From Gaertneriomyces semiglobifer (taxonomy: Eukaryota > Chytridiomycota > Chytridiomycetes > Spizellomycetales > Spizellomycetaceae), in assembly GCA_025558075.1 (NCBI GenBank), contig JAHLKF010000001.1, forward strand, positions 558,001-622,000: DNA of 64,000 nucleotides, read 5' to 3'. Positions within the stretch are counted from its first letter, which is position 1, and every line of letters begins with the position of its first letter. The notes beneath the pieces were generated by a model. That model worked only from the letters and a program-made list of their open reading frames with translations, was not told where the DNA came from and searched no databases. The translations under genes were made by a program, and so were the position numbers. Shown piece by piece: positions 8,110-49,283 of this stretch.

Positions 8110-9447
8110 GAGCGTGTGTGTGGTGGATGTGCGTTTTTTGCTGTTTGTTATGGGGCTGCTAGGAATTCAAGGCAACCTATTTCATTAATAAAGAATGCGA
8201 GCTGAGCCCAGCCATTTGCATAAAATGGAGCCACGCAGATGGGATGATAATAATTCGCAGTGCAAAGCAGAGTAACGAGCGAGTATTTTCAAGTAACGAT
8301 TTTTTCTGATGTCTCGGCAGCCTTTGCTCCGTATTATTACGGGCATTACCTATTGGGGCCCACGCTTTGATCTTGAGCAAGTCTTTGGGGGAATTCGATT
8401 CAGCGTCAGCCTGGGTGCATTCATTGCTACGTATGGGCTGGGTGGGTTTCATAAGACTGCTGCGTTCGTTTGAATGCGGCCTGAAATCGGCGAAATTAAA
8501 CAATTCCATTGTGATTAAAAAAGGGTCCTCGTTGAACATTCGTCTCTTTCTTGGCAATGAAAAAGCAACTCGCCTTTGGGGGGCCACCCACCCGCACTGT
8601 GGAATGCAGCCTACTTACGACGTACGTAGGGACAATCGAATCGACCTGCTCGCCTTCAATTCTCGGGGGAGAAGACCCAGGCCCCTCCAATCCAACAAGA
8701 CTTGCTTGCCTCCAGCCCGCGCGCCCCACTCGTACCGTTCATAATATGATAATGATCGCATAATAATAATAATAAAGCGCGCCCCTAATTATATTGCTAC
8801 AACCAAACCATGGGTCCCCCTTTTCGAAACATGGGCTGAAGGGAAAATCCGCGGCGATGAGTCGCTTGAGTCGGTCGCTGGGAACTTTTTGTCGCAGGTT
8901 CTCAGCCCGCCTTATCCTTTATGACTTGTTAAGTTGCCATGTTGCCCTGCATGTATGTGTAAGGATAAAAGGATATGCAGATGCAGATTCAGATGGAAGG
9001 GAAGGATGAATGGAATACCACTACGCAGATGGATGCATACCTGTGCTGAAATGAAAAGCTCATAATGAAACGTTACCCTGTGAACTTGAATGCTTATGTG
9101 TACATGGTGTTGATCGAGTCTTTTGCTTCATGATAATTGGGCGGTGACAAAGGGCAGGTTGCTATATATCAGTGTACATAGGCAGTGTACAAGTTCACAC
9201 AACCTTTGCCGATGTAACTCGAATGGGATGAATTCCCATTCCACCTTCCGATTCTGCGCCTAAATTCTGATCTCCCGCGCGCAAGTGCAGATCAATTTGA
9301 CGCCACGTTGGTGTGTAAAGTAGCTCCAGATCCACACCAATAAACTCATGAAGTGGAAGCTGATAGGCCGTGTTTCGAAGCGAATGGTTGTCCATCTCGT
9401 CGCGCATCTAATAGGTATACAGATCTGGGACGTATTTATACTCGATA
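7619..9447. other. Intergenic stretch, 1.8 kb, between the cyclin and PrpF-like genes
   Basis: Several ORFs of 60-136 codons occur on both strands, but none has a recognisable family, a good start context or phase-consistent partner exons. A 70-codon minus ORF at 9407-9195 (MRDEMDNHSLRN...) starts about 40 bp from the PrpF-like ATG and could be a small divergent gene; evidence is weak. Confidence 0.4.
8073..8106. repeat. (TG)17 microsatellite
   Basis: Seventeen uninterrupted TG units in the intergenic region upstream of the cyclin gene. Confidence 0.9.
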
Positions 9448-10718
9448 ATGCAACAACGCATTCCCGCCGCGTTTTTCAGAGGTGGTACTTCTAAGGGTCT
9501 GTTTCTACGATCTTCAGCGCTCTCACCTTATCCGCTGGCTATCCGAGAATCCATTATCCTATCAGCACTCGGTTCTCCCGACCCAGATGGACGCCAGATC
9601 GACGGCTTGGGCGGCGGAATCAGTAGTCTTTCCAAAGTGGCCATCTGCGGAGTGCCTGGAGAAGATGGGATGGAATGGCTGAACCATCCTCTGAATGACG
9701 ACAAAAATGTAGATGTTGTATACAGATTCGGTCAAGTCTCAGTGAGAAAGCCCGAGATTGACTGGTCCACCACATGCGGGAACCTGGTTGCAGCCGTAGG
9801 CCAATTTGCCGTCGACACACTCTTGTCTCAACCAAAGCTACAGACACTCTATCGCCAACACAATGGCATCATACCCGTCCGGATCCTATCTGCTAATACC
9901 AACGGCACTATTATCGCCAAAGTCCCTGCTGTCACCACTCCCAACCACGCCATCGTTGCCTCTAGCACCGGCAAGACGAGCATCTCGGGTGTCCCGGGCA
10001 CTGCCGCTGGCATTGAAATCGCCTTCCTGGACCCAGCAGGACCGCTGGGCGTCCTCCCGACCGGGCGGCGCAAAGATGTTGTCACCCTGCCATCTGGCGA
10101 ATCCATATCCATCTCCATCATCAACGCTGGCCTACCTACAGTCTTCCTTCCCATCACAGCGCTACCCTTTCCATCCTCCTCCCTGACTCAAGAAGCACCA
10201 TCTACATTGGACCAGAATGCCGACCTCCACAGTCTATTGGAGCACATCCGCTCAGAGGCCGCCCGACTCTTGAACACCCCACTCACACCATCTCTTCCCA
10301 AAATCGCCTTCCTGGCCACTCCTACACGCTACACCACCACCTCAAACACCACAGTCCAACCCAACGACATGGATATCTTGGCCCGCGCCATCTCTGTCGG
10401 AAACGTCCATCGCACCTTTCCTGCAACATGTCTGATGGCGTTGGCCGCCGGAGCCAATATTCCCGGTACAGTCATCAGCGACGCCGTGCGAACTAAAAAG
10501 GAAAAGTGGGTGAGAGTGGGTCATCCTGCTGGAATCGCAGAAGCGGGTGCGGATGTTTTCCAACCAGAGACCAGTCGTGTCAAGTTGGAGAGTGTTGGCA
10601 TGGTTCGCACCGCGAGGAGGATCATGGTGAGTCAAGACTCAATGCGCGCCAAGTATACTTCTGCAATCTTTAACATCCGCATCAGGACGGTGAAGTACTG
10701 GTTCCGAACTTTTCGTAA
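9448..10718 (+). CDS. PrpF-family isomerase (aconitate/methylaconitate isomerase-like)
   Basis: Exon 1 is 9448-10626 and exon 2 is 10686-10718; 403 aa. Ignoring the 59-nt intron gives a spurious 442-codon ORF. The short second exon supplies DGEVLVPNFS, the conserved family C-terminus after the RTARRIM motif. The N-terminus RIPAAFFRGGTSKGLFL and the glycine-rich IDGLGGGISSLSKVAI, together with DWSTTCGNLVAAVGQFA, are signatures of the DUF453/PrpF fold, two diaminopimelate-epimerase-like halves with a catalytic Lys/Cys pair. Members isomerise 2-methylaconitate, aconitate or methylitaconate, so the substrate here is uncertain. No mitochondrial presequence is clear. Neighbours give no pathway clue. 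Confidence 0.85.
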
Positions 10719-10891
10719 AGTGCTGGTTCTTCTTACTGTGGACACGCCAAACGCAGCAAATACTCTCACTGCCTAAAAGTCGAGACGGCGATGGATAGGC
10801 GGATATAGTAACAAAATTTTGGCTATATACAATTCAATTATACAGTATTAAGGTATTCGTATAAGTTTTTCTGCAAATTTCTTCAATCTTT

Positions 10892-21653: not shown

Positions 21654-23099
21654 GGCCAGATGGAAACGTGATTCCGTTCACTGTTTTGTGGCGCTTTCCA
21701 TCCTTAAGTGGGTGTGAATTCCACTTGAATGGCGGTGTTACAGAACTCAGTCCCTACAACATGAGAGTGCTTTGCATAGGTGCTGCGTTCATGATTTGCG
21801 GCCTTGAGCCGCGAGGCCTAGCATTTTTTGCTTGGTGGGGCAGGACTTACTCATACCATCTGCTACGGCTGCGTTCTACATATACATCCTTGGTTTGTGA
21901 GCCTGAATGTTAAAATGGCACTTCTCATTATCGGTGTGCCCGTTGTGTCCTTAAGTGGATGTGGCACTTCCTGTTATGATTTGTGTTGCCAGTACGGCGT
22001 CCTGGTTCTCAAAGGGGTATGTTACCGTATGTAGTCGGCCTCCATCCTTAAGTGGGTGCGTTGTCTGCCGGATGGCTCTACTCTGTGAGTTCCTTTCGCA
22101 CAGCGCTGCGTTGGCCAAGGTATCAGTGGGCAGAACAGCGAGTGTTTGCCTTTAGCCACTTGCGCTTGCGGGCAGCAGTTGAGCAAAACCACTGTCCTTC
22201 CCATGAGGATCCTGTCATGCTACAAATAATTACCACACGGCGCAATGGGAGCGCGTGGTAAACAGATTACGTAACTCCGACTGTACAGTTGCCGAACCGT
22301 GAACCATTTACTGACCGCTGATTCCTGTCGGCTGGTATAGGTAATCCTCCCACATTTGGATGGTGCCAAGGCAGCCAGAGTGTTTGCTTCATATGCGCCC
22401 ATTAAGCTCATTTTAGGATGACCTATTCTCTCTTGATCTCGGGTTGAAGCGTGCATGCTTTACATCGAGCGTATGCTCCATTTATTAACTCATATAGAAC
22501 TACTGACCATTCCCGAAAGAATAATTTGCCAGCTCATGAACCAACCACTCACCCTGATTAGGAGTTATCTAGTTCCTTTCCAATTTTCAAATCAATTAGC
22601 TAGGTCATGCTGCGACCCGGTGGACCGTATGTTCTCCTTTCATCTATCCGTGGCCATTACCGCTGAATCTGCGACGCGGTGGGATATCTGGGTCCATTGT
22701 GTTAAACGGAATCAGTGGGCACTTGGGATCATTCAGGATGCTCGCCCTTAAGCTTATGCTGAGCGTAGACGGGTGAGTAACAAACAATCATCTGTTGCGG
22801 GATGCGTAGAACATTCAATTCCAGGAATATACCTTCCCGGAGGTAATGAATTTTTCCATTCCGGTTTGTTGATGTTTCTCCGAAAGTTGACAAGGTCCAC
22901 TGGACTCCAACCATCTATAGATAGGACCAAGTCCCATGACAAGCTGAATAAGGGAGTGGGACCCTTGTGAGGTTTCGTGAGTCTTCGAGACGGGTTCGGA
23001 GCTTTTCCCAAAGGGAGGGGTATATAAAGGGACTCTTCCAAGCATCCGCGCGAAGTGCACCCACAGTGGTTGCGCCTCTCTGCGCCGTAATTTCCGACG
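21654..23099. other. ORF-poor stretch with a repeated 14-mer
   Basis: No gene modelled in 1.4 kb. TCCTTAAGTGG(G/A)TG occurs at 21701-21714, 21948-21961 and 22045-22058. On the minus strand each copy reads HPLKD(G/T) in an open frame of 20-40 codons, suggesting decayed repeats of a coding unit. A minus ORF around 22456-22220 (GAYEANTLAALAPSK) is also protein-like but unassigned. Confidence 0.45.
23021..23028 (+). promoter_or_regulatory. TATA box of the BMP-Kelch-7TM gene
   Basis: TATATAAAGG lies about 80 bp upstream of the start codon at 23100. Confidence 0.6.
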
Positions 23100-26000
23100 A
23101 TGCTTCAAAATAAGTTCCTCTACTTTTTTCTGGGTGTGACCCTGGTCTTCGCCCCAGCGCAAGCTGTGAAGATATTGGTACTTAGTGATGTTGCAATTAG
23201 TAAGTTCGAGGATCATCCGAAGCTCATGACGCTTGATTAAATGGCTGCGTCCGTGTGGTTTCTTATCTTCAGCCAACTATTATGGAGCAATGGCTCAAGC
23301 CGGATGCGAGAAAGCTGTTCAAGAATTCGGGAACAGTGTGACGGACTCTTGCGATTTCGTTACAGATGTAGCCGGAACTGAGGCAGCGCTTAGAAGTCAT
23401 CTTAGTGGTAACTATCCAAAATGCGTGTGCTTTCTTACGGTTGCCGACCAGTAATATGGTGATCTAGATGATTCGTATGACCACTGGGTCCTGGCTTCTT
23501 CCTCCTATGGGAAACGTTTTGCCAAGGGTATGCTTGACGAGGCTGGAATGCATTTCCATTTTCAACTGGTTGTAACGATTTCCCACTTATTTATGGGCGT
23601 GTAGTCGCGGCAGACTTCCCTCACAGGACAGTCTCGGTGGCGACCAGGGCAGTCACTGAAGCACCTAACGCTCAGGTCCATAAAGCCACTGCGAAATGCT
23701 TTTGTATTTGTCACGTCCAATCTAATGCGCTGCTTATTGACAGGGCGCGATATTTTCCGAAGATCAAGCGGGTTTCCTGGCAGGGGCCCTTGCGGGTCTC
23801 ACGACGCAAAGCGGTACAGTGGGTGTTCTTGGTAAGGATAGCATGATAGCAGTGCTTGCATTATTTTTAGAGCCCAAAACCTCATATTGTTTATGGTGTG
23901 CTTCAGGCGGCCAACCGAATGATGCTGTTCGAAAGTACGTCAACGGATATGTCATGGGGGTGCTGCACACCTGTCCGTCATGTCGAGTTGTGCGACGTTA
24001 TGCTTTGTCATTCACCGATCCCGCAGAGGGCCAACAATTGGCTGAAGGTGAGGCAGACTTGTTCGTAAAGATTATAGAAAAGCGAGCTGATGCGTGTCGC
24101 CAGAGCTCATTGCCGAAGGCGCTGATGTCGTATTTGGCGCTGGAGGAGCAACAGGTTCAGCGGGCATAGCAAAGGCAGCGGCAGACCAGGTGTTTGTTAT
24201 TGGAGTAGACGTTGATGAATCCAACAATCCTCCATTCGATGACAATCTTAACGTCGAGTACGAGTACATTCTCAGCTCTGCCTTGAAAAGAGTCGATCAG
24301 TCGGTGTATTGGAGTTTAAAAGACCGCTTGACGGGAAAGTGGGTTGGGTTGAATCGTGTAATGGACGCTACAAACAAGGGTATTGGAATGGCAAAAGCGA
24401 AGTCCCCCACGGCGCTAGGTGCGATGGCACAGGTGAAGTCGTTGGCCTTGGCTGGAGCAGGTGACGTTTGCCCTAAGAGTATATCCCGTACCAAGTGAGC
24501 AATATGCTTTTGCTTAAGCATCAACGTCATTTTGCCTCTGATACCTTAATTCCAGCGAGGATCACCTAGCGGTGATCACGCAGCAGCTGGAAACCGGGGC
24601 CCTTTCTACGAAAGTAGACCCTGCAGGGTTTTTCACTACAACTTCAGAGGACACACTGCAGCACGCGGTAGCTGGGTGGCTTCCTGTCGAGGGAATCTTT
24701 GGCCTCAGTCCTCCCGACTTGGAAAGTCATTCTTGGATTCATATTTCTGGAACGAACACCGCTATCCTTTTTGGTGGGAAAAGCGCCGCTGGTGTGGTCA
24801 ACGGCAGGACTTACCTATTTGATTTTGATCGCCGATCCTGGACTGTCATCACTGATTACGCGCTTGCTCCACCCACGACCGTTCCTGCGCCGCGCTCGAG
24901 GCATGCTGCAGGTTTTGTGGCGCCCAACATGCTCGTTGTCCACGGGGGTCTTGACACCAATGGTAATACATTGGATGATTTGTGGACTCTGGATACCACT
25001 ACCCTGGTGTGGACAAAGCAGTCGACCTCTGGAGTCGCGTTGTCAGCACATGCTGGTACCGTCATGGGTGGAAACTTCTATCTATATGGTGGTACTACTG
25101 AAGACTCAACCGTGTCATCGAAACTCTTCAAGTTTGACTTTGCCAGCGGCAGCATGTCAGAAATCACACCGAAGTCCCCGCAAGCCATCTGGCCAGAAGC
25201 TAAACAAAAGGCGGCACTCATTGCAAGCGGCCCATCTCGTATGATCTTATTTGGAGGTAAGCTTTCGTCCACGTACATTTTCCTTTCTTTTTGTCGTCTG
25301 CGAGAATCATCCCGCTTGATGCGAGTAGTCGAGTAATCATGATTGTGTGCAGGATCAACTGCAACTGGGATGACCAACAGTCTGTACCTGTTTTCGGCTG
25401 CGACTAACACATGGGAACTCCTGGACCCCTCGGGAGGTCCACCACCGCGTGTAGAGAGCCTCGCCGTAGTCCGTTTGGATGACAATCGCATCCTCTTCCT
25501 CGGCGGCAAGACTTCTGAAAGTGCCAGCGCTCGCACGTTTATATACAACTTGCCGCAAAACAAATGGGTTTTTACTGAATCTCAGGACTTGCCTGTCGGT
25601 ACCAACAGCCTCGCTGCAATTCGCTTCGTGCAAAGTGATGTGTCCACCGCTTGTGGTAGTGCTGGAAGTGATCTCTCTGGCATGAAGCTCTGCACTCCGA
25701 TTACCAAGCCTGTTATTGTTGCGTACGGAGGATCTCAGCAATGTATGTTGGTACCCCTCCACATCCTTGGTGTTTCTCCACTCATGCTATACTGTACTCA
25801 AACTAACTTACGTTGCTCATAGCGTACGGCGTCACAAGTGAGATGTATATCGCAATGCCACTGGATGAAGCCCCTCCAAGGTAGGCTGGTTTTTTTTACG
25901 AAAGCTCGCCCATTCACGCATCTCACATCGCTACAATTTTTCTTTCAGACCGATCATGTCTCTAAATAAAGCAATTGTTGCAGTACTCAATGTCTTCGCC

Positions 26001-27169
26001 GCCTTTGGCACTGCCTTAACCGTTGCCGCCATGGGCGGTGTTTGGATATTCCGCAAACACCGAGTCGTGGCCTCCGCTTCGCCAGCTTTTGTCCTTTTGA
26101 CGGCTTTTGGCATTTTGCTTGGTCAACTTTCCATTTTTGTCTATGCCAATACTGGGTCTACGAGAGCTGGATTCATGAGCACCGTCTGGTTAATGTCAAC
26201 TGGATTCACGGTCGCATTCGGCGCTATGTGGGTGAAAACGCACCGGTAAGTCGTCATCTTTTGGCAGAGCATAGGTCTTGGATATCCCATGAAAACTGAT
26301 TGTAATGACTTGGGTGAATGCAGGTTATACCGAATTTTCAATGCCAAGGTCCGCATTAGCGTTTCACAGAGCGGCATGTTTGCCAGTGTTGGAGGGTTCT
26401 GTGCGGTAATTTGGGTGAGAAAAACTTCGGTATTGCATCTTAAAACACCGAAGCCAACAGCTCATGCTTCACATTTGTCTAGACGTATATGATCATCTGG
26501 ATGACGGTTTTTCCGATATCCGACGCGCTTGTCCCTGTCGGGGACGTGGACTGGGTCCGGTGCACTGGCCGCTACTTATCTGAATTCGGCTATGGCCTAA
26601 TCGGCCTTGTGTTGATTCTTCTTATTGCCCTGTCCTACCTGTCCTTTTGCACCCGAAATGTCTGGCAAAGGTACAATGAAACGACCTACATTGGATATTC
26701 GGCGTATTCTGTGACCCTTTCCGCCATCATCATCCTACCGATACTGTTGTTCCTCAAAGAGTAAGTGACTTTGGGTTTCATCGGAACGTGCAAAAAACTA
26801 AATCCCGTGACCGTCGTGCTCTGTAGGCCCACCGTGGTTGATGCTCTCTCTTGTCTGATCGTCGAAGTTTGTCTGTACACGATACTCATTGCGGTTATTG
26901 GATCGAAGTTCTGGCTAATTAGACGCTACGAAGAACCGGAAACAGACATGGAAGAGAGCTCAGCCGGAGGCGAGGACTCTACCGTGAAATGCAAGGCGTG
27001 CATGCAACCGTTGCTGAAGACGGCATCGGCAACCCAAAACAAGGCTAATAGTCAACCCAAGGGCAGCAACACGCAGCCAACCGCCGTAGGGTCGCCACCC
27101 AAACCGAGCTATGTAAACTCATCTGTCCTTAGAAGTGGCTCTATGGACAGATCTAGAGGTCCTACTTGA
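23100..27169 (+). CDS. Class C GPCR-like receptor: signal peptide, BMP ligand domain, six Kelch repeats, 7TM
   Basis: Fourteen exons: 23100-23199, 23273-23407, 23468-23527, 23605-23675, 23744-23831, 23907-24047, 24104-24494, 24556-25256, 25353-25742, 25823-25880, 25949-26245, 26324-26414, 26483-26760 and 26827-27169. All phases agree (1047 aa). Residues 1-21 are a signal peptide (LYFFLGVTLVFAPAQA). Residues ~25-330 match the bacterial BMP/PnrA substrate-binding fold: NYYGAMAQAGCEKAV, GAIFSEDQAGFLAGALAG and DVVFGAGGATGSAG. Residues ~390-708 hold six Kelch units (ILFGGK, LVVHGG, FYLYGG, ILFGGS, ILFLGG, IVAYGG). Residues ~715-962 contain seven TM helices with the class C TM3 signature STGFTVAFGAMWVKTHRLYR. 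The tail includes KCKACMQPLL. BMP plus class C 7TM is known from Dictyostelium Grl receptors; ligand binding (nucleoside-like) and G-protein coupling are inferred. Confidence 0.88.
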
Positions 27170-27759
27170 TAAGTGGTCATCACTGCATTTACCAACCTCA
27201 CCACCTCGATTTACAAAATACTGAACAAGCGTAATGATGAGGTTCCGTTCTACAACTCACCCAGTTGATACCAAGTTTGTGCCATGGTTAAAGTGAGACT
27301 GCTCGTCTCATACACTCCTTTATGATACCCGTTGAGCAAGTTGAGCAAGGCAACACTCTCCTCACATTGAAAGCACATTAAATACACATTGCAATAGAAA
27401 TAAAAGATAGGGTCACTCACAAACAATATATTGATCATAGATGACGGAATTGTGGGTTGTGATAAACAGAGATGCCATTCCCTCAGATACTTTGTTTGCG
27501 AACGCATGAGAGCGGAGTTGCTGCGTAAGCACCGTTCGGTGGCAAAGTCACAATTGACGCGGTGGATGGTCAACTGTTTTTGATATTGAATCTTAAAGCT
27601 CTATGAATTGTAACGCTCTGCAAGGTATGCGAGCTTCTATCATTCTAAGTTTCTGTCACTCAAAGGTATGCATGTATCCGTATCCTAGAATCTGTTCGCG
27701 GTTGCTCATTTAAGCTGGCATTTTTAGTCAACGCCACATGGCAGCCGAGACAACCCGCT
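27170..27759. other. Intergenic stretch with a possible small minus-strand gene
   Basis: A 107-codon minus ORF (27573-27250) contains a likely intron (TTGTTT|GTGAGT...GTGAG). It ends in protein-like text (EESVALLNLLNGYHKGVYETS). An internal ATG (MASLFITTHNSVIYDQYIV) gives another plausible exon 1, but the two pieces do not join in phase. Not called as a gene. Confidence 0.3.
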
Positions 27760-28685
27760 CTATTTCAAGCCGAAGGCAGCCTTGGCCTTGGGAAGCACGT
27801 AGGCAGAAATGAGTTCGTGCACTTTGGCCTCAGGGTGGACACCATCGTACACGACGAACTTGGTTGGGTCCGCGCATTGCTTCACAGGGGTGGCGTATTT
27901 GTCAACGCAACCAACAGTAACATCAGTGTTGATGTTTCCTTGCTCGGCAATGTAACGCTGCTGGATGGCGCTGCCGACAACCTCGTCAGCACTCACGACG
28001 AGCAACTTGATGTCCTTGCGGTACTTTTGAATCTCAGAAAGCTTCTCCGCAAAGAGAGTGTTGTGACGAGCAGGAATGACGGGACTGGTTGGAAGATTGA
28101 AAACGATGAGCCTGTTGTAACCCCTGGCAGCAAGGTTGTAGATCGCTTCCATGGTTTTGCTGACGACAGTGTCAGCAGTAATATCAGCGCGTTGACGCAT
28201 GTAGTCGTTGCTGCCAGTCCACAGGGTAACGATGGTCTGAGCAGGATTCACGCCTGACTTCTGGTCCGCAAGGAAGGTGTTCACCTGCTGAAGGAGACCG
28301 GGGAGATTCTTTCTGACAACACCCCATGGGGCTTCAGTCTAAACATCGCAATCTTAGCAAACCGCTCGGAGACCCCAGGAAGCAGCAAGCACAGCACACT
28401 TACAGCAGCTAGGTTACTGTCTACACCAGATCCACCAACGGCTTTGCAGTTAAGGGCCAAGGACAAGTTCCCAGCGAGGTGTTCAACGAAGGTTGGGCCG
28501 TTGGAGTAACGTCCCTTCCAGTACAGAGGCGATGGAGGGTCAATTCCACCAGTACCCTTGTAGGTGTTTCCAGTGTCGGACAAGGAGTCACCGAAGGACA
28601 ACAGGGTGCCGCGAGATGCTGGGGCTGGGGCGGCAGAAACAGCCGATACAGCGATCAAAAACTGGAGGACGAGCTTGAGTTGCAT
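27760..28685 (-). CDS. Secreted GDSL/SGNH-type hydrolase
   Basis: Exons 28685-28404 and 28338-27760 (286 aa), 65-nt intron. Signal peptide LVLQFLIAVSAVSAAPAPA at the N-terminus. Block I contains the catalytic Ser in LLSFGDSLSDTGN, then block II Gly in GRYSNGPTFVEHLAGNL. The oxyanion Asn is in WTGSNDYM, and the catalytic Asp-x-x-His is in VYDGVHPEAKVHELI. This arrangement is that of fungal GDSL lipases/acetylesterases acting on cell-wall or plant esters outside the cell. Length is typical (about 300 aa). All catalytic blocks are present, so it is probably active. Confidence 0.9.
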
Positions 28686-28765
28686 TTTGACAGTTGGAGT
28701 TTCGCTTTGTGTTAACTGAACTGCTCAAGCTGGTGAGAAAAGGAGACAAGCGCCGGATGCCCCGC

Positions 28766-29341: not shown

Positions 29342-32300
29342 CTACTTGTGCTTTTTATTGGTCTTTGCCGGTGCCGCCTTTGGGTTGTGGCCACTTTTTG
29401 ACCCCGCGGCCACATCGGTACCTTTCTGGGCCGCCTTCATGATGTTCTTGAATTGGCCTGCGACCTTGGCTGCTTTCCGTCTAACAAACACGCAAATTAT
29501 TAGTCCAATGTTACCGAGATGCAGGAAGAGTATTGCGAGCAACTCACTTTTGACCACCCACGACCTTGCTGGTCAACGGAATATACGCATATGGATCAGG
29601 GCCACCAGTTTTCTTAACATCTCCCTTTGCTCTTTTCGCCTTGAACTGGCGTCCTAGCATCTTTTCTACCTCATTCTTCTTGAGGCCAACCTCTCTTGCA
29701 TCACGCTTCTTCTGACCCCATCCTAATCCCAAACCAGTAGATCCCTTTGTTTCTGCTGTTTCTTCGTCCTCTTCCCGCTTGCGCTTTTGCGCCGGAGTTA
29801 AAAACCTGACACGACCGTCCGCTGTTCGCGTGAAAGCAACGTCGGAGTTCAGGGAAGCCTTGTAATGATCTTCTGGAACCTGATTGGCATCTGTCATTTG
29901 TGCCTCTCCGTTGTCTTCCGCCTCTGAATCGGAGTCAATGACCATTCTCCCATCTTCTGAGTTTTTGAAGTCAGACCCCTTCTTCTTTAGTCTACGCTGC
30001 ACACCGGTAACGGCCCCTACGATCCTTGAGTCCAAGAAATCAGCAACATCGTCACTCTCTCGAATCATTGTATTCGCCGCTGCGTTGGCCTTGTCGGCCT
30101 TCGTCAACCGAGGTCGAAGCGCTTCCCGGAACTGTTCAGGAATACCATCTTCATCGCTGTCGTCGTCCAGCTCGGATTCTGATCCGTACAATGCGTCCTC
30201 GAACTGCTTACGTACTGCTTCTGATGTTTGGGTGCCACGACCAGCAAGAGCTCTTTTCGACGTTTCAAGTTCGTCGTCGGATTCGGCATCTGCGTTCTGC
30301 TTAGCTGCCAACTTTCTCTTCTTCAGCCTCTCGCGTCGCTTACGGATATTGTTCATAAGCTTCTTATCTGTCTCGGGAACAAATCCTTCGACCGCCTCGA
30401 AGGAGAACTTGCGTACCAGCCGCTCAAAAATATGGCGGACCTTTGCCCGGAAATGCGATTTGTGGTCGCGGGAGTGGTTCAAAATCGACACAATGATGTT
30501 CTCAAGCTCATCTTCCAAAACCTCTTGCTTTAACATCACAATGGCCACTTTAATGAATCCCAGTGCCGCTTTGACGACCTCGCGATTGCGGCTCGCCATA
30601 ACGTACATGACCGTGCTCACGAGCTCTTTGCACAACTCAGCATCGAGGACGCCCGCAAACTCAAATAACAGTCTACTGAGTGACGCAATAGCTGCAGACT
30701 GCATTGTCGAGGTCTCACCGGCCAATCCGGCGATGACCATCATAAAGTATTCCCTTAATGACACCTCAGCCTCCTGTGCGTAGTCCATCTCCTCGTCCTC
30801 ATTACTCATCAGCGACTTGGAAAGTGACGCAAGGTTGAACGTCCCGTCAACGTCCTGTTGGACCCCACCGCGGTGCATCTTGTGACCCATGGCCACCAAG
30901 CAGTCGTAGGCCGCGTTACGAGCCTTCTCACTCGCTTCTTTCGTAGCAAGCATGACTTCACTGAGCGCTACAGGCACAAATCCTAACAGCATAGTTTTAT
31001 CCTTGACCGGAATTGCCTCCGCTACCAGCTGAATGAGCTGGATTCTCGCCTTTTTCGATCCACTGGAGCTGTTCGCCAACACAGCGGGATCAACCAATCT
31101 GTCAATGAGCTCTTGCAGGTTAAGGTGCTCCGAAGGAATCAGTGCGACTACGTGGTTCAAACATTTGTAGGTACGCTTCTGAAGCGTCGAATCAGCGTCA
31201 CGCAATTGACCTGTCAGTACTTTGAAAAACAGAAGTAACGGCGACTCAGCATTGATGATAAACGGATCCTTGGCATCAGGTAGGAACGGCAACAGAATGA
31301 GAAGGAGATCCAACATTGCATAATCCCTTAAACGACCGAGTTGTGCAGCAGCCACGTCTCCGTCTGCCTCTTGTTCCTCTGATTGCGACTGCAACAGAGT
31401 CGAAACCAGATTCATGAAGTAGTTGACGACGGCTGTCTCATCAGCAACACTGAGAAGCGACTTGATAGTGCGCTCGTAGTGCTGGTTCTCGCGCTCGTGC
31501 AGACCTTGTAGAGCTTGTCCTTTGGCCTTCTGTCCAAGGATGGACGGGTCCACCGTCGTGTAATTGTTACATAAGACACTGAGGAAAGTCGTCGCATTGG
31601 ATTGAAGCGTTTGTAAGCCGGCTTCAGCTAATCTAGCATCCTCAGGATTTACCACTCCATTGCCCTCGCTATCTTCATCCTTTTCCGATTGCTTTACGAC
31701 AGACCGGTACCCGTCTATGAGACTCTCCAACGCGTCGCACACTGCGGGACGGAAATCCGGGTGTGTAAGTAAATTCGGATAAACTTCCTCGGGAGAGGTC
31801 TGAAGAATCCTTCCGAAATAGGGAACAACCATTTTGAACATGTATCCGACGTCTCGTGGTAATGTCGAGCATATTCCAGGTACCATCGCCCAAATCTGAG
31901 TTCCGAGGGTCTCGAACAATTTCGCTTCAACTTGGCGACCACCCAAGTTTGAACTTCCAGACTTTTCCATCACGCGGTTCGCAAGGGGCAAAAGTACTTT
32001 TGCCAAGTATTCTAACGTATGCGGTCCGAAGACATTCTCAGGCTGTCCGATTGTGGACGGCAGAGGGCGATTGAAAGCTTGCACAAACGTCGACAGCAAG
32101 TAGGGCCGACGAGGTTCTCCTGGACGTTCATTCTCGATGTTAAGTGGTACGTACTCTGTGAAAGTTGTGAGTCCAAGGCTTTGGACTGCGGCATGAAGCG
32201 CAATTTCAAGCTCATCCTTGAAAGGAAAACTCTCTCCGTATGCCTGGTCGTCGCGGAATGCCATAATATGCACTAGCGTCGCACGAATCAACTCGGGCAT

Positions 32301-33671
32301 CGCTGGACCTAACCGGTCAAATAATTGTTCAGCAACGTTGAGAACTGCGCCCCAGGCCGCTCTGTACTTGATGTCAGTTAATCCGGTATTGATAGTGTTT
32401 ATAATCTGAAGGAGGTAGGCATCCTGGTCAACCCTCTGCACCATCGACACGGAGATACAGTCACGCATCATGGCCGCTAAAACGGCCGCCGCTTTCGCTG
32501 TGATAACGGGCTTCGTCGTCGCTTGGCTGAAGATACCAACAAAGCTCGATTCAAAGACCGAGGTCAATAGTTTCGGGTACTCATTAACAGCATACTCCCG
32601 TTCTGAAGCTAATGCCTCCTCTGCATCCACTTCCGCCTTACGAACCAATTCTGCCAATCTGGAGAATCCACGCCCAATGAGGTCCAACCATGCTGGAATA
32701 AGCGTGGCATCGTTCTGGTAAGGCCTGATTTCCAGTAAAGAGCGGATGACAGAGTCTAGCAAGGCCAAGTCGAGATGGGCAAAGATCCCATCCTCTGCCG
32801 CTCCAGCACCGAACAACGCATCAAGAACTTGGAAGATCCATTGTGTAAGCACTGTGTTTCCACTTCCCGACGATCGCACGGGTAACCGCAGGAGCAACTC
32901 GCAGAGCGCCCTTAACTTATTGCGAGTGCGGTCGTGGGCACCTTGTACGGCCAAAACCGGCAGTGCCGCTTTCAAGAACACCAAAACATGTAAAATTTGC
33001 TGCTCCAACTCTTTCCTGTCTTTTGCGCTGGCGTTAGCCACCGTCTCAGAGTATTCATTCAGGGCCTTCAAAGCAAATTCAATGGTCGTTGACGTGGCTG
33101 GGTGATGTGCGCTGGGTGGTGGTGGACGTGACAAAACTCGTCTCACGACTTCATGTGCTCGTCTCCGTACTTTGGGACGGCCATCCACACTCATTATAAG
33201 AAGTGCTTGATACAGCTTTTTGCACGCCATATCCGTCGTCCAGCGCGCGGTATCCTGTGCCACCAGCAGTACTTCCAGACACCCTAAAACATTCCGCACA
33301 AGTGCTTGGTTCTCCTGGAAGTTCTCCAATAGGGGCACTAAAGTGTCGGAAATGTCGGTGAACTTGACACGCAGAACAGCCACCGGTATCCTTGGCGCTA
33401 CTACACCAAGCAGATGCATCGCGGCAGCAACGATGCTTTCTTCTCCACCCTCTTTTTGCTGGTCTAATATGGTCATCAACGCTCCAAAGTAAGCTAACGG
33501 TGTAAGTGCTTCATGTTGCTCTTTTATTGTTTCCTCGACAGCTGTGAGGATAATAGCACACTGTCTCTGATTTTCTAGTCCGGAGTTTGTTTGTGCCCTA
33601 ATCTTTTGGAGCTGCTCACTGGTTGAAAAGTCCTCTGAGGTGTCCGTATTGGACTCTCCTGTGGCAGCCAT
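29342..33671 (-). CDS. RRP12: Ribosome biogenesis protein RRP12
   Basis: Exon 1 is 33671-29548 and exon 2 is 29480-29342 (1420 aa). The joined C-terminus reads GGQKRKAAKVAGQFKNIMKA and ends in a Lys-rich tail KTNKKHK. The protein is almost all alpha-helical HEAT-like repeats, including the NUC173 region (VAEQLFDRLG, DVGYMFKMVVPYFGRIL, AVCDALESLI). It has acidic and Lys-rich segments near the C-terminus (RKRRERLKKRKLAA, ESDDELETSK, SESELDDDSDEDG). RRP12 is a karyopherin-like factor that binds pre-40S and pre-60S particles and Ran and helps nuclear export and 18S maturation. Length and order match fungal homologues (about 1200-1400 aa). A single 67-nt intron lies near the 3' end. Confidence 0.92.
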
Positions 33672-34864
33672 CTCTGCAAATGTAAAAGTGGGTCAATAAA
33701 ACCCGCCCAAGGCTCGCCTGACTGGAAAAGAACGATAAGTAAGTCAACGAGGAACGACAAGTGGAACATGACAGCATCTTACAAGACCGCCTGCGTGATA
33801 TGTACGATCCGATTCCTTTTGACGAGGTTTCCTAACAAAGGAAAATGAAATGCAAGCCGCAGCAAGTGCAAATTGCCAAAAAGAATTAGCTGCTGAGGTA
33901 AGCAACATTTCGCGCGCCAGTCTTCAAAGCGCGTTACTTGAAAGCATCGGGCAAGGCAGCGAGCATCGAACGATAGGATACGAGCCGTATCTTTATCACA
34001 GTACATTTGGCAGTAAGGGTTGATATTCATGTCTTTATGGATGGGCCTTGCGGCTGACTGGAATTACTGGAACTGATGACTGCGGGCCACTGTAATCTTG
34101 CGCCTTTTTGACAACGTCCATTCGGATGGTGATTAAAAGACCACATACTGCACAGCAGGCTGCTGTATAAAGTATTGCTGGGCACGTCGTTCATTCCAAA
34201 TATCCTTTGGTCCATCGTATATCTTGTTGCTTTGTCAGCTGTTTCGAACGTCTTGCTCGGCACAGTCAACATCCCGAAAGCAAGAAAGTGCAACTGGAAC
34301 AGGCATGACAGGCATCCAAGCGTACTAGCATTCAAGTGTCACCCGGCCAGCAAAGTTACTTTGAAGAAAGAACAGAGTTGCTAAAACCAGCCCCAATGCA
34401 TCCAAAAACGATATTATTGGGGTAAAAACGGGCAGGACGACGAAAACCATGTCCACTTCTCCTGTTGTTTTCCTTCGCGTAATTCTTTGTTTTGTTCGGG
34501 GCGTTCCGTCTCACTACAAAGTATCGGTCAGTATCTGCACAGAGGGTGATCAAGCAACACGGAAAGCAACATGTCCGCTCGACCGTACGCATGTACTCAC
34601 CCCAGCAGACAAAGATCTTAACTGAACGCCAAGTGGATAGCCAACTCCGCCATTTCCTTGTTAAGTATTCTAAGATCCAACAGCCGATGGACAACCGCAC
34701 ATGAGAGGAAGAGAGAAAAGAACAACAGCCATTTAATAGGTTGATCTTCGTGAGTTCCCATGCCTACACAGACGTGCCAGCAACGCGGCCACTATCTGGC
34801 GCTCGCTTCCTCCCAAAATGCGGGCCGTAAATCTCTGCCTCGCATGGTATACCCGCCATTAAGT
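33672..34864. other. Intergenic stretch, 1.2 kb
   Basis: Scattered ORFs of 60-114 codons on both strands, none recognisable. Minus 34700-34380 can be split by an intron (GTGAGT...CTGTGCAG) into pieces reading WRSWLSTWRSVKIFVCW and DTDRYFVVRRNAPNKTKNYA; a small gene is possible but unproven. Confidence 0.4.
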
Positions 34865-40580: not shown

Positions 40581-43500
40581 ATGGAAGCCGACAGCTCGCG
40601 GATGGACAATCTCAGGATCACCAAAGTACGCACTTCCAGCTGCCCCTTCCGCGTCTTTGATCGTTGGAAAGCTGACCTATCACTCTTTCTCCTCTGTTTC
40701 GTGAAATGAAAGGTCCAGGGTGTGAGACTTGATATCCGTCGACGTCGGTACGCAGGAACGCTCCACCTCTTGGCACATCACCTCTTGTTTTGTGCAAACG
40801 ATACCGAGAATGAAGTTTGGGTAGGTAGAGGTTTACAGTTCTGCTTCTTTTTCCATCTTTTTGCGATTGCCTGTAGTTTTCGCGTATTTGCAGGCGGGGG
40901 CAGCCACTCCTTTATGCCCAGATTTATGTACCTGAACGATCGGATATCGCTCATTTCATCATTCCTGTGTATGCTCACTCTGCTTTCTCCATTGTGGCAG
41001 ATTCCGTATTCAACTATATCCCGGCTCGACTTGTACCCTCCCAACCCGATGACAAAAGATGTGATACGCAGTGCGATACATATCACGTGTCGTCACTTTA
41101 TGTTCGTGCGGGTCCACATACCCACGACACATTGCGGGGACGTATGGACTTCGCTAAAAGGCATGCTGAATGTTTACGGAGTGGAGGGATTGGAGGCTTT
41201 TAGTTATCAACCTGTTTGGAAGAACGGCTCTGAGGACGCACGACGGAGGAGTGTGGCGCGTACTGCGACTGGCGTGAAAGGGAAAGGATGGTTGTTGTAT
41301 GATGCTGAACGGGAGTTTGCGCGTATGGGTGTGGATGGTGAAATATGGAGGTTGAGTGGGTGTAATCATGAGTACGAGGTAAACCATCTCCTGAAACAGA
41401 AGTACCATTGCCGAACGGGGAATCAACATCGTCTCGGGCTAAACCATGTTTTTCGTTATTTGTTTAAAACAGGTATGCCCCACCTACCCACGCCACCTCG
41501 TCATCCCCTCCAAAATCAGCGACAACGTGCTTCGCTACACGTCCCGATTCCGATCCAAAGGCCGTATCCCCGTGCTTTCCTACCTCCACAAAAACGGCAT
41601 ATCCATCACCCGCTCCTCACAACCACTCGTGGGACTGACACTCAACCGGTCCATTCAGGACGAAAAACTCGTTGAAGCCATTTTCACCTCGACAGGAACT
41701 TATCCCGTTGAACCCTGTTTGATCATTGACGCCCGACCCACGGCGAATGCGATGGCGCAGACGGCCATGGGTGCAGGAACTGAGAGTATGGAGCATTACC
41801 GAAGTGCGAAATTGGAGTACCTCGGAATTGATAATATCCATGTTGTGCGAGAGAGTTGGGGACGATTGATGGAAGGTAATGAGAAAACCTTTTTTTTTGC
41901 ATAGTTATTGTGGGATGGAACTTTGTGTTCCGCCTCCTGCCTGATTAGAAAAAAAAACGCTGACTGTTGGTCTTTTTTTCCTTTGACAGCTTATAATGGT
42001 GGAGAAGGAGGTCCCATTCCTCGTGCCGCGCTGGAAAAGTCGCGTTGGTTACGCCATATCAAACATATCCTCGACGGCACCCTCCTCATCGTCAACCACG
42101 TGCATATTAAAAAGTCCCATGTTCTGGTGCATTGCAGGTACAATTTCTGCAAGCTTCTCTGCATTGTGGACAAGTTTCTTCAATATTAAAACCATTTTTT
42201 CGGGGTTTCTTTCTTTTGCAGTGATGGTTGGGACCGCACAACCCAACTCTGTTCCCTCTCCGCCCTCTGTCTGGACCCCTACTACCGCACCCTCGCCGGT
42301 TTCTGCACACTCATCAGCAAAGACTGGCTGTCCTTTGGCCACAAGTTCAGTGACCGCTGCGGCCACGTGTCGCGACCAGAAGATACGGAACGGAGCTACG
42401 CGAGTCAATGGCGAGATGTCCGCAAGAGTCTCGTGGGTGGTGTGAAAGGGTTCATCAAGAGCGTTCGGGACGGTGGTGCGGAGGGTATGTTTGGTATTGA
42501 TAGTGGGATGACGAGTGAACCTGCCTTCCCACCTGTTTCGTCTGCGAGTGGGAATCCATCGATACCCCCACGGGCAGGTGGTGGTAGTAACAATGGTAGC
42601 AGTGGTGGAGGAGGAGGAGAGGTGCTTGAAAGTGTGACGCCGAGTTACAAATCCCCACGCGAACTTTCTCCGGTGTTCTCACAGTTTCTGGACTGCGTAT
42701 ACCAGTTATGGGTGCAGTACCCGACGCGGTTCGCGTTCAGTGTGGAACTGTTAGCGTTTTTGAATCAGAGCGTGTATGAGTGTCGGTATGGCGATTTCTT
42801 ATTCAACTGTGAGAGAGAACGGGAAGCGGCGGATGTGACGCGTCGGTGCTGGTCAGTGTGGGATGCGGTCTTGGGAGACGACGAGGCAGCAGAGGGTGGT
42901 AATAGCAGTCAGAAGAAGTTTGTCAACCCGAATCACGTCAACGATGATGAGGAGGTGCTTTTTCCTAGTACCAAAGATCTTAGGTACTGGATTGCGATCT
43001 GTATGCAAGAGGATGCGGCATCCTCCTCTGGCTCCGTGTCGTGCAGCAGTGCGGATTCAGAAGAAGACGGCAGTGGGGTGGCGGCACCCATCCATTTAAC
43101 TCACGACGAAGACGACACAGACGACAAAGCAGTGTTTCTTGACGATGATGGGATTTCTGACGATGATGATGAAAAACCGGTGGTGATTGGTAGCCCGAAC
43201 ACTGCCCACGCAGTGATGTACCCTCCTCCTCCCACGTTTTCCAACGCAGCGAGGCCAGTGTCACCGCTCGATCGTCCGAGTCGCGCAGGAGGCATACATA
43301 CGAACCACACGAGCAGAAGCAGGAGTGCGAGTAAGGACCGATCACCCGGAATACCCATCCCTTCTCCACCCACGCCTACCAAACACAAGCACTTGCAGCC
43401 ATTCAGACACCAACAAGATCACACCTTGAAACCGAACGTCCAACCGACCCTGACCGCCCAACATGACACAACAGCATCCACTGTTCAAGATTCGGACCGT

Positions 43501-43692
43501 GCGTTTGAAAGATTCACCATTGGCGACGACGACGATGATGACAATAATGACAAGACAACGATGAAACCGCTCTCACACAACACCAACGGCTCTGCCGCGA
43601 CGACGAATGGTGGGAACGGGACGACTCCCGCTGGTGCCAGTGAGGCGGTGGTCGTCAAATGTGATTGGGAGGGTGGACATCCATTGTCGTGA
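40581..43692 (+). CDS. Myotubularin-family phosphoinositide 3-phosphatase
   Basis: Six exons: 40581-40625, 40713-40820, 41001-41378, 41473-41875, 41990-42137 and 42222-43692 (850 aa). Residues ~8-110 form a PH-GRAM domain ([44 protein letters not shown]). The phosphatase domain begins [17 protein letters not shown] and has [17 protein letters not shown] and [13 protein letters not shown]. The active site is [15 protein letters not shown] (C-x5-R with Asp in the loop), split by an intron between HC and S. All catalytic residues are present, so an active PI3P/PI(3,5)P2 3-phosphatase acting at endosomal membranes is expected. The last ~200 residues are low-complexity and acidic, with Asp runs ([17 protein letters not shown]). 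No C-terminal FYVE or PH domain is visible. Confidence 0.92.
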
Positions 43693-45968: not shown

Positions 45969-48827
45969 CTATTTCCATTTGGGTTTCCCTCCCATTCGTC
46001 TCGCAGCACTTCTTGTGAGAACGCCACCACCACTACTTGGACTCGTGCTACTCGGACTCATGCTACCACCGCTGCTCCCACTGTGGGTCCTCTCCATCTT
46101 CACACTCTTTAACCTCGCAGCAGGGCTCGCATTCTCCTTATCACTCGTCATATCCTTTGCCTTTTCACCTCCACGTCGTCTCACTCTCCTAGCTACAGGC
46201 GACGGCACTCTGCCGTCGTGTGCATTGTCCAACTCCCGAACTCGCATCATCGGCGCGACTGACCCCGGCAACGGGAGTGGTTTCGGAATCGGTAACATAC
46301 TCTCTCTTCTCTCCTTTCTCATCACGGGAATCAACGATTGACGCGGTTTACGTCGTTTACGCGGCGTCGCCGCTGGAGCAGGTGTCGCTGCTTTCTTCAC
46401 ACTGTGAATCTCATCCGCATCCGGACTCGTATTTCCCACATTCATAAGGTCGAACACCGGCGGTGGGCCTAGCATGGCTAACAAGCTTGAGTGATTAGAG
46501 TTATCCCGACGGGATCGGTGGCTTCGTGGGACAGGCGTCGGTTGATCATCCACGGCATCCTCTTCATCCTGGACAGTAGAACCTCGGCGCAGGGTACGCC
46601 TGCACGTTCTCACACTGCGGCTCCCATCCGGACCCCCGCGGAACCCATTCTTGACTTTCTTCACAGTGGACACCGTAATAGGTGAGGCTTCAGCAGAGCG
46701 CTTGCTCTTACTCGGTGGTGTGCTTGGAGGAAGAGGGGCAGTGAACCTCGGGAGGCGTAGTTCTTCCAATTCATCTACTTCCTCTTCATCGCGGTTGGGT
46801 TGCGTCTCGGTTTCAGATTCACTCTCACTCTCTACCTCTGGTTCACTCTCGCTTGCCTCCGTACTGGTATCCCACTGCACGTCCACCTCTTCGCTTGCTT
46901 CCTGCTTCTTCCCCATCCTTTTCACTATGACGCTCACCAGCTTCTCCAGGCCACCCTCTCCACTCATCCCACAGATTCCGCGCACGCACTCTCCCAGGAC
47001 TTCCTCCATACATCCCATCTGTTCTTTCACTGCCCCGTCTAACCTTTCGCATCGCACCCTTAACGCCAGTTCACGCATCTCCACTTTACGCATCTGTACC
47101 TCCATCTGCAACCGCTCAATCTGGTACGGAGACAGCGGTCGTCGCATGATCGTGCGTGTGCGCGCGAGTTTATCCAGTTCAAGCGTATAGCGATGCAGCG
47201 ACACACTCATCTGGTCGGCATTATGCCGCAGTGTCGTCGTCATATCATGCAAGGACTCTATCGTTTGATGCAATTGACCTAGTACGGTGTTAATGTGCCC
47301 GGTAATGTTGCTCATTGCATTTGTTGCGGTTGGCCCGCCATCGCCAGTCTCGTCCGCATTCCCATCCGCCAGTCCACTCAGCACTCTCATCACTCGTTTC
47401 ATGCACTCCACTCTTCGTTCACATCCTTCCACCTCCTCCGTAAAATGGATCCGTTCCTGCTCCTTTCCCACCATTTTCTCATAGACCTTTCCCACTCGGC
47501 GGATGAGGACTCCAAAAACATCATCTGCAACTCCTTGTGAGGCTTCATTTACTGTGGTCGTCGTCGTCGCTTCTTTCAACTGTTCCCTCAATACCTCCAG
47601 CTCTTTTCTCAGCTCTTCCATTCCATCCTTCTCAACATTCTGTACTACCGTCGTTCGAATATTCTTGGCCCGATTGGCATACTTGAGCGTATTGTGCGTT
47701 TCTTCGTAGTACACACTGCTCGCGCTCACGTTCGTAATCATCACCACACGGCAATTCCCACTCAGCGAGTACTTGAGTAACCTCGTCAGTTTAGAGTCGC
47801 GATACGGCACATGTACATTTGTCTGCTGCTGTTGGTTGGATGCGAGTTGTCCTCCTCCTCCAGACTTGCTAGCCCCTTCGCAAAGTGCATTAATACAATT
47901 CCCCAGCGCCAACAACGAGCGATTGATATTCGCGCCCTCCAATAACCGCTCTCCTTTATTCTTGGTCACCGACGCCCGCTCACTCCCCGCCAAATCAATG
48001 ACACTCAAAACAGCACTCTTCCGTGCCTCCCCCGTTGTCTGACGCATAAACACCTGCAACACCGCATGTGACCGCGACGACACCGCATTCGCCTCTGTCG
48101 GCGCCCTCGTCCGGTTCTCATTCCCGCGTATCAACATCTGCATCACATCCTCCACCGTCCGAGGCGCGTGCTCGCTCAATCCACTCACAACCACACGTTG
48201 GTGCGCATCATCTTCACGTAACTCCAGTCCCGCACTCTTCCCCATCATCATCATCGACCCATTCGTTGTCAGCAAATCACGTATCGTCTCATTATACACT
48301 TCGAAATAGGAACACCGAACTTCCCACCCGCGATGTCGTTCTTCCGCGCTTCGTACCCGCTCAAACAGCTCTTGCATCGTCAGAAAGATCACACCCGGAT
48401 CATCAGGTGTGCCTGTGATCGTGTAGGTTTTCCCGCACCCCGTGGCGCCATATGCAAACACCGTGGCGTTGAAGCCGTCTAGGACGCCAGAGAGGAGGGG
48501 TTGTACCGTGTTTTCGTAGACGGTGGTTTGGGTGCTGTGTTCCGGAAAGATGCGATCAAATGTGTACGTGATGGGTTTCCGGCGCGACAGGGTGTGGTAA
48601 GATCGTGAGGGTGGAGGGTGGAAGAGAAGCGTTGTGGGTGAGACTGCGGTGAGGATGCGGAGAGGACCTGATGAGGAAGATGCAGAGGATGCGAGTGTCG
48701 ATGAGGAGGAGGGATCGGTAAATGGTCGGATGCGGACTGTGACGGTGATGGACGATCCGGGCTGCTGTTGCTGATGTTGTGGAGAGTGCTGGGCACCTGG
48801 GTCCTGGCGTGTTGTTGGGGAGCCCAT
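45969..48827 (-). CDS. KIP3: Kinesin-8 family motor protein
   Basis: Single-exon gene, 952 aa. An N-terminal motor domain covers residues ~26-400: SITVTVRIRPF, P-loop AYGATGCGKTYTITG, switch I NAVSSRSHAV, switch II DLAGSERA and the microtubule-binding VPYRDSKLTRLLKYSLSGN. The segment GVIFLTMQELFERV after the P-loop and the long insert before it are typical of kinesin-8 (Kip3/Klp5/6/KIF18). A neck and coiled coil follow (ELRKELEVLREQLKEA). A disordered basic and acidic tail has SKSKRSAE and RRVRRRGGEKAKD, likely for nuclear entry and microtubule tail binding. Kinesin-8 motors walk to plus ends and limit microtubule length during mitosis and nuclear positioning. Confidence 0.92.
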   Translation of the reverse strand: MGSPTTRQDPGAQHSPQHQQQQPGSSITVTVRIRPFTDPSSSSTLASSASSSSGPLRILTAVSPTTLLFHPPPSRSYHTLSRRKPITYTFDRIFPEHSTQTTVYENTVQPLLSGVLDGFNATVFAYGATGCGKTYTITGTPDDPGVIFLTMQELFERVRSAEERHRGWEVRCSYFEVYNETIRDLLTTNGSMMMMGKSAGLELREDDAHQRVVVSGLSEHAPRTVEDVMQMLIRGNENRTRAPTEANAVSSRSHAVLQVFMRQTTGEARKSAVLSVIDLAGSERASVTKNKGERLLEGANINRSLLALGNCINALCEGASKSGGGGQLASNQQQQTNVHVPYRDSKLTRLLKYSLSGNCRVVMITNVSASSVYYEETHNTLKYANRAKNIRTTVVQNVEKDGMEELRKELEVLREQLKEATTTTTVNEASQGVADDVFGVLIRRVGKVYEKMVGKEQERIHFTEEVEGCERRVECMKRVMRVLSGLADGNADETGDGGPTATNAMSNITGHINTVLGQLHQTIESLHDMTTTLRHNADQMSVSLHRYTLELDKLARTRTIMRRPLSPYQIERLQMEVQMRKVEMRELALRVRCERLDGAVKEQMGCMEEVLGECVRGICGMSGEGGLEKLVSVIVKRMGKKQEASEEVDVQWDTSTEASESEPEVESESESETETQPNRDEEEVDELEELRLPRFTAPLPPSTPPSKSKRSAEASPITVSTVKKVKNGFRGGPDGSRSVRTCRRTLRRGSTVQDEEDAVDDQPTPVPRSHRSRRDNSNHSSLLAMLGPPPVFDLMNVGNTSPDADEIHSVKKAATPAPAATPRKRRKPRQSLIPVMRKERRESMLPIPKPLPLPGSVAPMMRVRELDNAHDGRVPSPVARRVRRRGGEKAKDMTSDKENASPAARLKSVKMERTHSGSSGGSMSPSSTSPSSGGGVLTRSAARRMGGKPKWK

Positions 48828-49283
48828 GGCGAAGGGGGATTATACAAATGATGGGTGGATATTTCTATATCTCCCCCAGTTTATTATGCTGTAAACAAGA
48901 CGGTTAGTTTGCACAATGTTCAACTGTTCATTTTCCGCGATCGTTCGGACTCTTTTTGACACGGTTCGCGTTTTTTGTCCCGTTTTACTCGCACACGGCT
49001 CATAGGAGTTTGAGGAATGGGACTATGCTTGCACAGTAGTGCTAGTAACACTGGTACGAACTGAACGCACTGATAGCAAAGGTGCCGGTGCTGTGGCTTT
49101 CTTCCAAAATGTTAACAACTCTATACGTTTGGGTGTGCTCCAACGGTTTTATGTACACAAAGGTTTTACATGGCTTGGCGACCATCAAAATAGGCCTTCA
49201 CCGCTCATCATCACATTCCGCTGTCTGAAGCATCATAATCACGGTCGGTGGGTGGGCGGCTCAATTGGTTACTTAAATAATTT
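48828..49283. other. Short intergenic stretch
   Basis: 5' region of the kinesin-8 gene and 3' flank of the next minus-strand gene. No gene seen. Confidence 0.55.

Follow-up and report, generated by a model that had tools for sequence, protein, structure and literature searches.

We analyzed a 64,000-nucleotide stretch of the genome of the chytrid Gaertneriomyces semiglobifer (contig JAHLKF010000001.1, positions 558,001 to 622,000 of the forward strand; hereafter the window), in which a gene at positions 23100 to 27169 encodes a receptor with a BMP/PnrA-type ligand-binding domain, a six-bladed Kelch propeller and a class C seven-transmembrane (7TM) domain in a single protein. The features of this locus are as follows.

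23021 to 23029, plus strand: TATA-like box TATATAAAG, a candidate called by eye, about 70 nt 5' of the ATG
23100 to 27169, plus strand: whole coding region, 14 exons, rebuilt from sequence, with junctions compared to those of relatives
23100 to 23165, plus strand: putative signal peptide, residues 1-22, called by eye (basic start, hydrophobic core, small residues ahead of the cut)
23169 to 24414, plus strand: BMP/PnrA-type domain, exons 1-7, about residues 24-302 (PF02608, E 2.4e-27; solved relatives)
24677 to 25848, plus strand: six-bladed Kelch propeller, exons 8-10, about residues 370-701
25959 to 26908, plus strand: class C seven-helix domain, exons 11-14, residues 716-961 (PF00003, E 1.8e-31; GABA-B receptor subtype 1)
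26984 to 27007, plus strand: cytoplasmic-tail motif VKCKACMQ, residues 987-994, kept in the family
27399 to 27404, plus strand: AATAAA, a possible poly(A) signal, candidate called by eye

The gene and its relatives in zoosporic fungi

The gene, rebuilt by hand from the sequence, runs from a start codon at 23100 to the end of a stop codon at 27169, and its 3144-nt coding sequence joins in phase to encode 1047 residues. All 13 introns are of the GT-AG type and 56-96 nt long. Read-through would meet an in-frame stop in nine of the 13; among the four without one (introns 4, 5, 6 and 12), three would shift the frame and only intron 5 (75 nt) would stay open, and there the spliced form aligns gap-free with the Geranomyces and Fimicolochytrium proteins described below. 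A hydropathy peak at residues 10-28 accompanies the putative signal peptide. The TATA-like box was called against the TATA consensus; the promoter scan used a sigma-70 model and says nothing for this gene.

Searches with Pfam profiles placed Bmp at residues 38-302, Kelch by two profiles (PF24681, E 1.5e-37; PF13418, E 9.5e-34, in five stretches) and 7tm_3 at residues 716-961 (110.2 bits against a cut-off of 33.5, spanning 250 of 251 profile positions), all above their curated cut-offs. The Kelch part carries six Kelch-type double glycines (402, 459, 507, 562, 613 and 688), giving six kelch motifs in a propeller fold, while three more GG pairs in or near it (those at 500 and 590 inside) deviate from the repeat pattern. 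A 7tm_3 domain and a large extracellular ligand domain of periplasmic-binding type together mark the protein as a class C G-protein-coupled receptor, and as the Kelch part is placed between the signal peptide and transmembrane helix 1 (TM1), it is predicted by topology to be extracellular. An earlier note on this DNA had described fourteen exons joined in phase at these coordinates, encoding one receptor with BMP, six Kelch units between ligand domain and helices, and a 7TM core; rebuilding the gene bore out this description, and the profile searches found every domain it named.

The ectodomain contains seven cysteines and no N-glycosylation sequon. C663 and C676, in the last Kelch blade, are invariant in 12 aligned relatives, Chromosphaera and Opistho-2 included, and C45 and C60 are present in all ten family rows that cover them and in 0 of 40 bacterial rows. 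The pairs C663/C676 and C45/C60 would form disulfides, with one of the seven cysteines left over.

A protein search recovered a full-length relative in Geranomyces variabilis (P0001, 1059 residues, 46% identity over 99% of the query), which excludes a chance origin of the gene model, and a Fimicolochytrium jonesii relative (P0002, 870 residues) whose gene model is without the later helices. A further search took the BMP part of P0001 as its query and yielded 130 matches; among the 120 on which our counts rest, 12 carry Kelch and eight of these also 7tm_3. Thus at least eight proteins in five genera hold all three domains: Geranomyces, Fimicolochytrium, Blastocladiella (two), Catenaria and Allomyces (three). 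The other four BMP-Kelch proteins belong to G. michiganensis and Thoreauomyces, whose models contain no 7TM, to Opistho-2 (Pigoraptor; no 7TM match) and to Chromosphaera. When ten proteins other than P0001 and P0002 were rescanned with hmmscan, covering six of the eight three-domain proteins, BMP preceded Kelch in all ten, and 7tm_3, present in six of them, always came last.

Geranomyces, Fimicolochytrium and Thoreauomyces belong to the family Powellomycetaceae of the Chytridiomycota, and Catenaria, Blastocladiella and Allomyces are Blastocladiomycota, as the accessible text of PMC3251606 also states for Allomyces. In BMP and Kelch, identity to the receptor is 42-51% for the Chytridiomycota members and 29-39% for the Blastocladiomycota members. 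The search requires shared five-residue words, and in the two runs above scoring was limited to the best 7996 and 7997 candidates; Dictyostelium, Spizellomyces and Batrachochytrium were not among its matches, which in a search of this kind is no evidence of absence, and the search with the 7TM part missed P0002 although this protein holds about half of the domain. The BMP-Kelch-7TM design recurs in two fungal phyla and, from these sequences, looks like an old sensor. The earlier note had called the architecture unusual, which agrees with the literature searched, but it is no one-off, as five other zoosporic fungal genera have it.

The predicted ligand pocket

Solved relatives of the BMP domain include Lbp, PnrA and TmpC. 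To compare pocket residues we aligned 13 family rows to the best 40 of 56 bacterial BMP segments, taking the BmpA residues from the accessible part of PMC13325309 and those of BmpD and PnrA from that of PMC7093131. By motifs and spacing, Y37, Y162, F187, V233, D234 and K260 map to BmpA Phe27, Phe151, Phe176, Val224, Asp225 and Lys242. The aromatic sandwich that holds the base (BmpA Phe27 and Phe176) is present as Y37 and F187, with a conservative Phe-to-Tyr change at the first position; Y37 and Y38 are adjacent, and the alignment to solved relatives pairs the bacterial Phe with Y38. On the ribose side two of three residues are kept (D234 and K260), and the third, BmpA Asp98, is Ala111. The receptor shares the fold and six of the seven compared pocket positions with bacterial PnrA, BmpA, BmpD and Lbp, but differs from these proteins in that they are free lipoproteins for ABC transport and are without the cysteines at 45 and 60.

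Across the family, 82 of 88 pocket cells are kept against a background of 787 of 1235; as this background includes six of the seven positions and the rows are related to one another, the comparison is not a test of significance. The base-stacking aromatics and the Asp/Lys pair are kept across both phyla and in Chromosphaera. The "nutrient-binding" domain of the earlier note can be narrowed to a pocket of nucleoside type, with binding itself predicted. At position 111 each of the five chytrid rows, this gene included, has Ala or Ser, and all 40 bacterial and all eight other family rows have Asp. Because this Asp is lost, the sequences suggest that chytrid and Blastocladiomycota receptors bind different ligands, the chytrid one being, for example, a free base or a modified nucleoside.

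In a tree of the BMP domain, the 13 eukaryotic receptor rows lie on one side of a branch (support 100/99), with 14 of the 40 aligned bacterial rows on the other; as the bacterial rows were limited to proteins of 0.55-1.75 times the query length, the tree does not show the origin of the domain, and the tree program flagged that the long branches of Opistho-2, Chromosphaera and the receptor come together.

The domain might instead have inherited the fold alone and bind another small molecule, such as a sugar, a cofactor or an organic acid. The loss of the ribose-side Asp from the chytrid rows would fit this, as would the retention of D30 (near PnrA Asp27) in only eight of ten family rows in the column listing and the existence of BMP-fold proteins with other named ligands, among them an atrazine-binding protein matched here (E 7.9e-13). 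We consider this unlikely, though a serious contender, given the aromatics and the Asp/Lys pair kept in both phyla and in Chromosphaera.

The propeller, the seven-helix core and other receptors in the genome

The BMP and Kelch folds are supported by homology and by a predicted model of the ectodomain of the orthologue in G. michiganensis, built from a 12-row alignment with that species first (mean predicted local distance difference test (pLDDT) score 80, predicted template modeling score 0.60). Foldseek with VIA-align placed model residues 18-387 on guanosine-bound Lbp and residues 374-718 and similar ranges on Kelch domains, including KLHDC2, LZTR1 and KEAP1. An earlier model, with Geranomyces and one relative in the alignment, was discarded (mean pLDDT 30.6). 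Among the best 50 rows from a viral fold library many were named Kelch or galactose oxidase, and none was informative.

As Kelch propellers commonly bind proteins or peptides, and KLHDC2, LZTR1 and KEAP1 are among the matches, the propeller could itself be the sensor for a surface, polymer or protein partner, with the BMP domain modulating it or vestigial; LamG-like ectodomains on three further class C receptors encoded in the genome (two over and one below cut-off) also suggest contact sensing. We regard this as improbable, since the BMP domain is about as conserved as Kelch or more so, unlike a vestige (50% against 43% identity in Geranomyces, 42% against 26% in Chromosphaera), with Opistho-2 as the exception (BMP 30%, Kelch 35%). 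That two adjacent genes, BMP and Kelch-7TM, were wrongly joined in a model built by hand from the sequence alone is scarcely credible, as proteins of other species, predicted independently of our model, span this join and the exon 7/8 junction (24494/24556) aligns gap-free with two of them.

The closest solved relatives of the 7TM domain are GABA-B receptors, with subtype 1 the best (E 1.9e-11) and mGlu2 at about 1e-6. The loop ahead of TM6 reads YNETTYIGYSAYSV, similar to its GABA-B counterpart INDSRYVGMSIYNV. A 7TM tree set eight family rows against six of the genome's other 14 class C loci (those whose 7TM lies in a single open frame, with two of the six shortened). The family rows came together as a clade in 12% of 200 bootstrap trees, a grouping that the approximately unbiased test does not reject (p 0.375). 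By BLAST, two of five Blastocladiomycota rows (109 and 85.5 bits) beat the best paralogue of the same genome (80.5 bits), and the other three fell below it (75.5, 75.1 and a partial 55.5 bits). The 7TM domain could have been exchanged, and these sequences leave a shared origin of the domain in the two phyla unsettled.

After the last helix, all seven family members with a modeled tail carry the motif [VL][KR]CKxC[KRM]Q: the receptor itself, P0001, P0072, P0088, P0099, P0101 and P0102. A looser pattern was absent from the coding strand of the class C stretches examined, which may not reach every tail; its two matches at these loci are one place on the opposite strand. The motif is a hint that the entire receptor is of common descent, and its CKxC core is a putative metal, lipid or partner site.

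The genome holds 26 matches to 7tm_3, grouped into 15 loci, and this gene alone matches PF02608; a search with the Chromosphaera BMP part likewise found only this gene. The 27 PF24681 matches are all more than 20 kb away from the other 14 class C loci. Ectodomains were sought in chosen long frames at 11 loci, and matches in a frame other than that of the 7TM were assigned by position. ANF is the nearest same-strand upstream ectodomain match at seven of the 14 (L010, L013, L015, L016, L019, L020 and L021). The class C ectodomains of this genome are otherwise varied, with beta-helix at L009 and L017, LamG_3 at L011 and L018, LamG/Big_9 below cut-off at L014, TctC at L012 and SBP_bac_8/1 at L022. 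Five G-alpha loci exceed the cut-off. Guanylate-cyclase matches occur at six places, each of them more than 20 kb from any BMP or PF24681 match.

Around the gene, CCTTAAGTGGRTG occurs three times upstream (21702-22058, plus strand), and none of 100 shuffles of the window held three copies. A GDSL lipase/acylhydrolase gene of at least two exons lies convergently downstream (27760-28724, minus strand; PF00657, E 7.6e-9 in the frame 27760-28338). Ordinary neighbors on the minus strand are RRP12 (29544-33692), a kinesin (45969-48839) and an MBOAT acyltransferase (52676-54646), and on the plus strand a myotubularin-related phosphatase (42190-43692) and a PrpF-like protein (9415-10776).

A proposed mechanism and its relation to known systems

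We give roughly an even chance to the proposal that the protein is a class C G-protein-coupled receptor that senses a nucleoside or nucleobase, with the propeller as a membrane-proximal relay. The BMP domain would act as an extracellular Venus flytrap that closes on its ligand, Y37 and F187 stacking against the base from either side. A short proline-rich linker connects the propeller to TM1, and the propeller would be a rigid spacer carrying this movement to the seven-helix core, which would then activate a heterotrimeric G protein. The cysteine-rich domain of mGlu receptors plays such a relay part. Beyond the conservation of the pocket we infer every step, namely ligand binding, dimerization, relay through the propeller, G-protein coupling and any role in zoospores. 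Adenine can trigger germination of Blastocladiella zoospores; a purine signal in zoospores was sought in one paper, whose sole "adenine" is in the title of a reference.

Several points weigh against this proposal. All five chytrid rows have replaced the Asp98 equivalent, so that the ligand may be something other than a plain nucleoside; in AMAG_12053 position 187 is Leu; the pocket was mapped with the BmpA sequence itself outside the alignment; no family row matches the cysteine with which TM3 begins in GABA-B; and the relay through the propeller is a proposal. Close BMP relatives can also prefer different nucleosides, according to the accessible part of PMC7093131.

Metazoan GABA-B and mGlu receptors resemble the receptor in their 7TM part but have an ANF-type flytrap and no Kelch, and according to the accessible text of PMC12716839 mGlu receptors have a cysteine-rich domain that GABA-B receptors lack. 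The accessible text of Krishnan et al. 2012 (PMC3251606) lists AMAG_08984 and AMAG_12053 from Allomyces macrogynus among class C receptors bearing a BMP domain, together with 13 from Dictyostelium. The Dictyostelium Grl receptors are likened here by description alone, as a BMP-type flytrap on a class C 7TM, and that text names no Kelch in them. AMAG_08984 and AMAG_12053 are probably of the same kind as our receptor, since a Pfam scan places Kelch between BMP and 7tm_3, but their BMP part is 34-39% identical and keeps the ribose-side Asp.

The Chromosphaera protein (P0054, Nk52_evm24s367, 1367 residues) has a BMP-Kelch ectodomain like that of the receptor (BMP 42%, Kelch 26% identical), but in place of the 7TM has kinase-like and guanylate-cyclase domains inside, the layout of receptor guanylyl cyclases; Chromosphaera is an ichthyosporean. 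The prefix Nk52_evm denotes Chromosphaera perkinsii in the accessible part of PMC6981761. Because this BMP-Kelch protein carries a guanylate-cyclase domain, the pair occurs with two different outputs. Tentatively, and with confidence well short of even, we suggest that BMP and Kelch form a single ancient module with which opisthokonts sense purine-type molecules, one that predates the split of fungi from the relatives of animals and has been coupled to a class C core in zoosporic fungi and to a receptor guanylyl cyclase in an ichthyosporean.

As far as the literature searched goes, BMP-Kelch-7TM is a new domain architecture within a known receptor class. The word "kelch" is absent from the main text of Krishnan et al. 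2012 and, figures and supplements aside, from that of a 2025 survey of fungal G-protein-coupled receptors (PMC12842992) and of an eLife survey (PMC12716839). The titles and abstract openings covered in searches for Kelch with receptor or chytrid literature, among them 20 of 585 papers in one search and 20 of 25 in another, likewise held no description of it, with papers under subscription, for example de Mendoza et al. 2014, outside this coverage. Two published receptors, AMAG_08984 and AMAG_12053, appear to have had their Kelch domain omitted. The pocket of the receptor points to one chemical class, and a propeller-coupled flytrap, with the same ectodomain on a guanylyl cyclase elsewhere, provides a domain swap made by nature with which to study how closure of the flytrap is relayed across the membrane.
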